This document shows, piece after piece, positions 26,818-49,553 of a stretch of 64,000 bases of DNA; within the stretch, counting starts at the first letter, position 1; every line of letters starts with the position of its first letter. This stretch comes from Candidatus Gastranaerophilales bacterium (GTDB lineage: Bacteria; Cyanobacteriota; Vampirovibrionia; Gastranaerophilales; Gastranaerophilaceae), in NCBI GenBank assembly GCA_944325625.1, contig CALVAP010000001.1:135649-199648 (forward strand). The letters are read 5' to 3'. Both the position numbers and the translations under genes were made by a program. The notes beneath the pieces are model-generated. The model made no database searches, was not told the DNA's origin, and saw only the letters and a program-made list of their open reading frames with translations.

Positions 26818-27186
26818 ATGATTAAACAATTAAACAAAAAAGAACAAACCAGAAAAAGACATCAACGTATCAGAGTCAAAATTTCGGGAACGACAGAATG
26901 TCCGCGTTTGGCTGTTTACAGAAGTACAAAGCATATTTATGCGCAAGTTATTGATGATGTAAAAAGAGTTACTCTTGCAGCAGCATCTTCAAATGATAAA
27001 GAGCTGAAGGAAAAACTTGCACATGGTGGAAATATAGAAGCAGCTAAGGTTGTTGGCGAAGCCGTAGCTAAAAAAGCTTTAAAAGCAGGAATCAAAGACG
27101 TAGTATTTGACCGTGGAGGTTTTGTGTATCACGGACGAGTAGCGGCGTTGGCAGATGCAGCAAGAGAAGCAGGTTTGAACTTCTAA
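26818..27186 (+). CDS. rplR: 50S ribosomal protein L18
   Basis: L18 binds 5S rRNA with L5. The 122-aa product contains [37 protein letters not shown] and the C-terminal [20 protein letters not shown]. It is the last gene: a terminator lies 25 bases downstream, whereas spc operons normally continue with rpsE. Confidence 0.98.
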
Positions 27187-27210
27187 TTTGAACAACAAAA
27201 TAACATAACA

Positions 27211-27246
27211 AAATGGCAACCCTGTTAGATGGCTGCCATTTTTGTT
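27211..27246 (+). terminator. Intrinsic terminator of the ribosomal protein operon
   Basis: AAATGGCA pairs with TGCCATTT, extended by CC/GG across one mismatch, and is followed by TTGTTG. It ends the operon directly after rplR. Confidence 0.75.
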
Positions 27247-27281
27247 GTAAAAGGTCTCGTATATTGTATAAGTTATATTAC

Positions 27282-28054
27282 TTAGTAGTTCATCGCGCCT
27301 TCTTCAAGCACCCGACCTGCGCAGTATACCGCCTGAGTCCATCGAGCTCCCTCAATTTCATCTCTGTTTACAATCTCAGTGGTGCAGAGTGGAGAATTTT
27401 TGTCGTAGTTTGAGCCATAGGGTATAACAGTCCCTGTTGCTATTGTAATTCCAACGCTGCTACTAGCGCAATCAGGATATATACTAAAAGCAAATATGTC
27501 CCTACCCCACTTATTAGGTCCTTTTTTACCATTTACATCAACAGTTACAGCATAATCTGACCATGTCATACCATCAGCTGTTATGTAGATTTTGTCATTT
27601 CCTGCTGCCATTTTTGGCTCACCATAATTATCTAAAACTGTACATTCTTCCCAATTGCTTTCGTCACAAGTTTTTACAATTTTCATGTATTTTTTTATAA
27701 TATTGGGCCAACTGTTATAGAAGTCAATGCATCCATTGCTATAATACTCCAACACTTCATCATCATGCATAGCAAGTGACATAACATTAGAAATAGTAGA
27801 ATAAGCTTTTTTTAACCCTGTGACATAAGAATGTTTTTGGTACTTAGAAACGAGAGTGGGGATAGTCATAGCAGCTATGACACCGATAATAGTTAAAGTG
27901 ATAAGAGTTTCAGCCAGGGTAAAAGCACGATTAGTGTGACGCCTAAAGAGCCCAAAACCCTTATTAGAAGCTAACTTCTGGGGGGGGGGGGGCAGCTTAG
28001 CGGCACAGTTTGTGCTATTTCGACATTTTTGACTATGTAGCTGTCAAAATTCAT
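27282..28054 (-). CDS. Type IV prepilin-like protein, frame broken at a 13-C tract (candidate phase-variable gene)
   Basis: From ATG 28054 (with GGAGG 8 bases upstream) the frame reads MNFDSYIVKNVEIAQTVPLS, then enters a run of 13 C and stops (CPPPPRS, stop). In another frame the protein resumes after the tract with the type III prepilin motif RAFTLAETLITLTIIGV and a full pilin body to residue-end LEEGAMNY. The intact paralogue at 48804-49553 aligns across the whole length, including the segment before the tract. Eleven or 14 C would restore one frame of about 257 codons; 13 is OFF. The pilin body has conserved Cys, Trp and the NGKKGPNKWGRDIF stretch. Product would be a pseudopilin or minor surface pilin. 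A homopolymer sequencing error is the main alternative. Confidence 0.75.
27980..27992. repeat. Homopolymer tract of 13 G (C on the coding strand)
   Basis: It lies inside the prepilin gene between its N-terminal leader and the prepilin cleavage motif. It is the only long G/C homopolymer in an otherwise AT-rich window. Tracts of this kind change length by slipped-strand mispairing. Confidence 0.95.
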
Positions 28055-28189
28055 AAAATATTGCCTCCTATAATCATGTACATATTCACCATATATGATT
28101 TTACAAAATTATGGAATAATTTGCAACAAACTTAAGAAAATTTACTCAAAAGAATATATTTAGCGAGAAAACAATTTAGCAGTCTATGC

Positions 28190-48803: not shown

Positions 48804-49553
48804 TTAATAATTCATCTCTCCTTCTTCTAACACCCGACCTGTGCAATATTCATTTATACGAGTACTATCGCACCTAGGTGAACTTGGGTTATTATTCCAG
48901 TATTCGCTCTCGGTATTATATAGATATTTAGCATCTAATTTTGAGCCGCGAGGAATAACTGTGCCTTGAGCTACGCCATTGCGGTTGTATTCGGCTGACC
49001 TGAACACAAAGATATCCCTGCCATATTTATTTGGGCCTTTTTTACCATTAATATCAACAGTAATATAACTAGTCCAAGTCATGCCATCAGCGGTTACAAA
49101 AATACCAGTATTGCTCTGCAGTGAATTCATATCAATGCACTCTGCCCAATTACTGCTATCACAACTTTTAACAACTTTCATGTATTTTTTTATAATGTTT
49201 TCGCGGCTGGTGTACCAATCAATACCCCCATTGCTATAATACTCCCACACTTCATCATCGTGCATAGCAAGAGCCATGGCATTAGAAAGAGTAGAATAAG
49301 CTTTTTTAAGCCCTGTGACGTAGGTATGTTTTTGGTACTTAGAAACAAGAGTAGGTATAGTCATAGCAGCGACTACGCCGATAATAGTAAGTGTGATAAG
49401 AGTTTCAGCTAAGGTAAAAGCGCGTTTTTTGCAACGCCTAAAAAGCCCTAAACCCTTGTTAGAAGTTAATTCCTGTCGTAGGAGAGCAGGACAGTTTAAT
49501 GGCACTGTTTGTGCGATTTCAACATTTTGAACGATGTAACTGTCAAAATTCAT
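48804..49553 (-). CDS. Type IV prepilin-like protein (intact paralogue)
   Basis: The 249-aa protein has a long leader (about 43 residues, MNFDSYIVQNVEIAQTVPLN onward), then basic RRCKKRA and the type III prepilin motif FTLAETLITLTIIGVVAAMT, cut by a PilD-type peptidase before Phe. The conserved Glu at +5 is present. The pilin body shares SKYQKHTYVTGLKKAYSTLS, NGKKGPNKYGRDIFVF and GRVLEEGEMNY with the 27282 copy, plus four or more Cys. It may be a minor pilin or pseudopilin. GGAGG lies 8 bases before the ATG. The equivalent of the C-tract here is non-repetitive (CPALLRQ). Confidence 0.85.
   Translation of the reverse strand: MNFDSYIVQNVEIAQTVPLNCPALLRQELTSNKGLGLFRRCKKRAFTLAETLITLTIIGVVAAMTIPTLVSKYQKHTYVTGLKKAYSTLSNAMALAMHDDEVWEYYSNGGIDWYTSRENIIKKYMKVVKSCDSSNWAECIDMNSLQSNTGIFVTADGMTWTSYITVDINGKKGPNKYGRDIFVFRSAEYNRNGVAQGTVIPRGSKLDAKYLYNTESEYWNNNPSSPRCDSTRINEYCTGRVLEEGEMNY

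Follow-up and report, generated by a model that had tools for sequence, protein, structure and literature searches.

To our knowledge, large repertoires of surface genes switched by reading frame have been described mainly in a handful of pathogens that live on hosts and in bacteria closely related to them. The opa genes of Neisseria carry CTTCT pentamer repeats in the region encoding the signal peptide, and pilC carries a poly-G tract. Up to 11-12 opa loci have been described, and the published maximum for Neisseria is 82 loci per genome (PMC5953494). For C. jejuni the reported median is 20 tracts per genome, and the strain with the most tracts has 81 (PMC6321876). For Pil1 from Streptococcus gallolyticus, experiments have established that a premature terminator is disrupted by ribosomes when the frame of a leader peptide changes (PMC3894217).

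A poly-C tract in the 64-kb stretch of Candidatus Gastranaerophilales DNA analysed here (the window) belongs to a set of loci that can be compared with these systems. As in Neisseria opa and pilC, paralogues each possess their own hypermutable repeat near the gene start and appear to be switched by frameshift, with products presumably located at the surface; here, the targets are type IV prepilins, the repeats are mono-C or mono-G, the lineage is Candidatus Gastranaerophilales, and 14 copies are present in the genome and dozens in relatives. With the poly-G/C loci of Campylobacter and Helicobacter they have in common a G or C homopolymer of about 9-15 bases that resides within coding sequence and sets an OFF or ON state by frame, but the tracts in this genome cluster in one protein class and family members reach 100-176 runs of at least 10 per genome. 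As thresholds and definitions differ, setting the 176 tracts against the 82 of Neisseria or the 81 of Campylobacter gives only a rough comparison. Judged from sequence, the mechanism looks to be of the kind known from Neisseria Opa/PilC and Campylobacter poly-G, while scale, target and lineage look new. Of the "new case" announced in a preliminary description of the tract, the latter three aspects thus stand and the mechanism does not. In the literature searched, which mostly did not extend to subscription journals and preprints, we found no report of phase variation in Gastranaerophilales or Melainabacteria.

The tract consists of 13 consecutive C on the minus strand (27992-27980) and is, as had been described, the only long G/C run of the window, in which no other run of at least 6 C or G occurs. 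The plus strand of the window contains 15% C and 21% G, and about 1e-4 runs of at least 13 G are expected on it in 64 kb. The gene region (minus strand, 27282-28126) begins with a promoter TTGCAA-17 nt-TAAAAT (28098-28126), found by consensus scan and conserved in the leader copies of this genome (G000), and a Shine-Dalgarno sequence AGGAGG (28069-28064) that is conserved in 12 copies and provides a good ribosome site for the ATG at 28054-28052. The 5' leader coding segment, MNFDSYIVKNVEIAQTVPLS(C), occupies 27993-28054. Translation from this ATG gives MNFDSYIVKNVEIAQTVPLSCPPPPRS and then runs into a TAG at 27973-27971, seven codons past the Cys. The prepilin body (27282-27980) lies in another frame and comprises the second half of the leader, the N-methylation helix and a variable C-terminal domain. 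No stop interrupts this frame between a point 5' of the tract and 27282, and apart from the frame break the type IV prepilin gene is intact. A search of the prepilin frame of the window copy for ATG, GTG or TTG codons 5' of ATG 27869 gave none, and this first possible start is already situated within the hydrophobic helix; an alternative start between tract and helix was rejected because no such codon is present. Frame counting and direct reading agree that the gene is full length with 11 or 14 C and not with 12 or 13 C. The tract at 27980-27992, the proposed switch, is accordingly OFF as assembled and ON at 11 or 14 C. Sequence and alignment further identify a paralogue on the same strand (48804-49553) in which the same leader and body are joined in one frame without a tract, so that it is always in frame, showing that both sides of the tract form one protein. 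On all these points, i.e. start, stop, paralogue and permissive lengths, the preliminary description proved accurate. As for the surroundings, L18 is the last gene of the spc ribosomal operon here (26818-27282 of the window), the prepilin gene is next and convergent, and the S5 gene is found on the same contig about 142 kb away.

Profile searches place the body of the window gene above the cut-offs of both PF07963 (N_methyl) and TIGR02532. It exhibits a hydrophobic helix and, preceding it, a class III signal peptide whose cleavage site lies in front of F(T/S)LAE, as is typical of type IV prepilins. The predicted mature pilin starts with FTLAETLITL after A/F cleavage (27285-27923, minus strand) and is modelled by AlphaFold2 with a long N-terminal helix at a mean pLDDT of 86. 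Cleavage/methylation motif and N-terminal helix are thus the same as in type IV prepilins and type II pseudopilins, whereas the leader is about 42 residues long and the C-terminal domain is without PDB fold or Pfam match. Profile matches to pilins of solved structure are confined to the N-terminal part, i.e. approximately the first 58 residues; comparing the fold of the modelled pilin with the PDB returned zero matches and no Pfam domain was detected in the C-terminal domain, from which we therefore read no function. The genome has 37 N_methyl matches and a single prepilin peptidase (PF01478). Most named relatives retrieved by protein similarity bear the label Candidatus Gastranaerophilales, Melainabacteria or uncultured bacterium, and many come from gut or rumen samples.

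The preliminary description treated the tract as a single switch, and this view has to be abandoned, as it is one of a genome-wide and family-wide set. The genome (1.70 Mb) contains 16 C/G runs of at least 9, while about 1.4 (some 0.1 for C and 1.3 for G) are expected from the dinucleotides of the window, and 14 of the 16 reside in prepilin leaders, 12 as poly-C and two as poly-G. For the two C runs outside prepilin leaders (G000:C4:178889-178898 and G000:C16:36641-36649), a clear link to a gene was sought and not found. Twelve copies could be aligned, namely ten with an uninterrupted C run of at least 9, one with an interrupted tract and the tract-free paralogue at 48804-49553, and in all of them a single promoter-leader module precedes pilin bodies that differ. 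In the ten poly-C genes the order is TTGCAA-17-TAAAAT, Shine-Dalgarno sequence, a 20-codon leader, the tract, SNKGFGLFRR and the helix, and the shared module also occurs in the other two copies. Conservation among the 12 copies sets in about 100 nt 5' of the ATG and no similarity exists farther upstream. Two further leader types of this genome, MKKSNCLLSIAPPPP and MISIKFCKKTNKKT, each have a poly-C tract of their own. At L003/L075 (C9) and L066 (C3) the pilin body that follows this leader module is a second, clearly distinct one (KIQDQGF...), indicating that leaders and bodies behave as modules.

All 14 tract genes of the genome are OFF as assembled, which would happen by chance with a probability of 0.003 if frames were random, and each retains an open body of about 215-290 codons. 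To come into frame, six would need a shift of +1 and eight a shift of -1. No single frameshift product is therefore encoded, and a programmed frameshift with one fixed shift was rejected for this genome. Tract lengths range from 9 upward (9-15 overall) without a fixed value. They derive from metagenome assemblies and may be miscounted, homopolymer lengths being the least reliable part of such assemblies, which raises the question whether the true genes are in frame and the OFF states stem from errors of assembly or sequencing. Such errors do not, however, create runs of 9-13 C/G at one and the same place in 14 paralogues and in some 80 further genes from other assemblies, 14 of 14 OFF is unlike random miscounting, and a long homopolymer is real even where its count is wrong, such that we regard this explanation as very improbable. 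Loss of mismatch repair was rejected as a source of tract variability because MutS is present in the genome; slippage is thus not helped by absent mismatch repair.

A uniformly OFF set might also consist of decaying pseudogenes with a fixed frameshift. One copy, G000:C4:219900-220628, has an interrupted and hence less mutable tract (CCCCCCTCCCCC) and is out of frame, which fits decay but possibly represents a switch locked in the OFF state. Against decay stand the open bodies of all copies, the conservation of the tract position across genera and the substitution pattern. In the leader 5' of the tract, pooled dN/dS is 0.10 in the real frame as opposed to 1.46 and 0.72 when the wrong frames are read; 3' of the tract it amounts to 0.34 in the body and 0.24 in the helix region, all values being simple pooled pairwise counts that are not mutually independent. 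The coding segments 5' and 3' of the tract are both under purifying selection. It follows that selection has acted on one continuous protein, even though the assembled sequence cannot encode it, and that the tract genes are not decaying. The decay of the downstream region that the preliminary description had set against a switch is not seen among these copies, and the pseudogene explanation, already largely refuted, has hardly any probability left.

Comparison of tract lengths in a sister genome, which had been proposed as a check, was possible in G002, where 24 comparable leader copies contain 11-15 C. These copies differ on average by 3.5 of 62 nt upstream of the tract and by 0.3 of 36 nt downstream, while the length of the tract is different in 75% of the pairs. 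Even where both flanks are near-identical (at most one difference each), 21 of 26 pairs are unequal in tract length. As paralogous leader copies within one genome and not strains are compared, these figures identify the tract as by far the fastest-changing part and do not give a switching rate. Eight of 27 classified copies in G002, about a third, are ON. Most tracts of this genome are found at contig ends, with the downstream gene outside the assembled sequence. Taken together, recurrence in 14 genes, length variation between near-identical copies and purifying selection on both sides support the original reading of the tract as a phase-variable switch.

Across the family, with one genome per species compared, C/G runs of at least 10 occur in 117 of 146 genomes, many of which have 30 to 129, and the maximum in the class-wide sample is 176 in one genome. 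Outside the family but within the same class, mostly 0-2 such runs are present, with several to about 27 in a few families. Other genera possess different leader sequences with poly-G as well as poly-C, and the tract is found at the same place. In G023, 32 of 34 sampled tracts lie shortly 3' of a prepilin gene start, and most are poly-G runs of 10 (OFF); seven of these 32 prepilin genes are ON and 24 of the 25 OFF genes need +1, with start codons in other genomes assigned by an automatic Shine-Dalgarno rule. From 78 named loci that were fetched by protein similarity and not by tract, 24 tract-bearing prepilin cases could be classified, four of them ON. Over all directly classified cases, 19 of 94 are ON, which is below one third (p = 0.006). 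The OFF cases require +1 in 53 and -1 in 22 instances, and the excess of +1 derives mainly from G023. In G016 and in other, scattered genera, automatic assignment leaves most tracts without a link to a prepilin; they are located elsewhere or further upstream and were kept out of the model.

Tracts in the family are not restricted to prepilins but also present in genes for flagellins and other surface proteins. In L146:1501 and L147:1501, both from other genera of the family, poly-C/G tracts lie within flagellin genes and split the ORF. In L141:1501, a 15-base C/G run adjoins the start of an ORF of 496 residues whose N-terminus resembles a signal peptide. The L290 region (G016:C18:1-15000) features seven C/G runs of at least 10 in 15 kb, several of them in methyltransferase-like ORFs, and may be a variable surface-polysaccharide region.

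The frame states bear on a further explanation, programmed slippage, in which RNA polymerase or ribosome slips on the C run and a little full-length prepilin arises from every copy while the DNA remains unchanged. CCC-C is a shift-prone sequence on the ribosome, and a uniform OFF state in G000, the low overall ON fraction and the nearly uniform need for +1 in G023 are all in line with such a process or, in G023, with a fixed frameshift. On the other hand, shifts in both directions are required in G000 and no tract length is fixed, both sister genomes, G001 and G002, as well as G023 contain copies that are ON, poly-G takes the place of poly-C in other leaders, and near-identical copies have unequal tracts. 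We therefore consider programmed slippage improbable. The 14 of 14 OFF genes nevertheless count against switching as well, as they are not predicted by plain neutral drift; the OFF excess may be due to selection or to a preferred tract length.

G002 offers a second design. Its tract sits in an upstream ORF (MHLNFN...CPPPP), for example in L097, L114 and L122. In frame, this ORF continues for about 45 codons and ends at a stop overlapping the prepilin start (ATG); when it is out of frame, a stop is reached after a few codons. On the way from tract to prepilin the ORF contains a terminator-like element, consisting of a stem of 7 bp (TCAAGCC/GGCTTGA) and a T6 run 3' of it. The stem is kept in all 11 distinct copies with enough sequence, although their loops differ, and the T run is interrupted in one of the 11. 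A repeat in a leader ORF, a hairpin with T run inside this ORF and a pilin start thereafter make up the layout known from Pil1, and anatomically the arrangement resembles an attenuation-type switch. It shares with S. gallolyticus Pil1/Pil3 (PMC3894217) the short OFF peptide that ends 5' of hairpin and T run and the long ON peptide that extends through the hairpin to the pilin start. It differs in its poly-C tract (GCAGA in Pil1), in its approximately 27 copies per genome, in the overlap of the upstream ORF stop with the prepilin start and in concerning type IV prepilins instead of sortase pili. The window gene is organized differently: tract and pilin make up one gene, with no separate leader ORF 5' of the pilin start, and a scan revealed no terminator-like site.

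In our opinion, the tract very probably is a simple-sequence contingency locus and part of a large prepilin repertoire that undergoes phase variation by strand slippage. The homopolymer is far longer than expected by chance and the reading frame depends on its length, the coding sequence 5' and 3' of it is intact and under selection, and length varies among near-identical paralogous copies in G002. The poly-C run would slip during replication and change its length by single bases, presumably at a high rate within one lineage. With two of three tract lengths, translation would end a few codons past the tract (OFF); with the third, the full prepilin would be made and processed by the single prepilin peptidase (ON), and this product can be expected to become surface filament material. 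The window gene would be one of 14 independently switchable prepilin genes, giving rise to a population with many combinations of pilus or pseudopilus subunits, most of them OFF in any one cell. With distinctly less confidence, we lean towards the wider proposal that Candidatus Gastranaerophilales harbor one of the largest homopolymer switch sets known, in some species mostly on type IV prepilins, that at least three unrelated leader designs are in use (poly-C leader, poly-G leader and poly-C upstream ORF with attenuator) and that most genes are held OFF, each cell displaying a small random subset of subunits.

As most tract genes are out of frame in the assemblies, annotation pipelines will miss or truncate them. 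The host lineage is an uncultured, non-photosynthetic sister group of cyanobacteria that lives in animal guts. If our reading is true, it would suggest that gut commensals under pressure from host or phage gamble with their pilus subunits in the same way, and do so at a larger scale.
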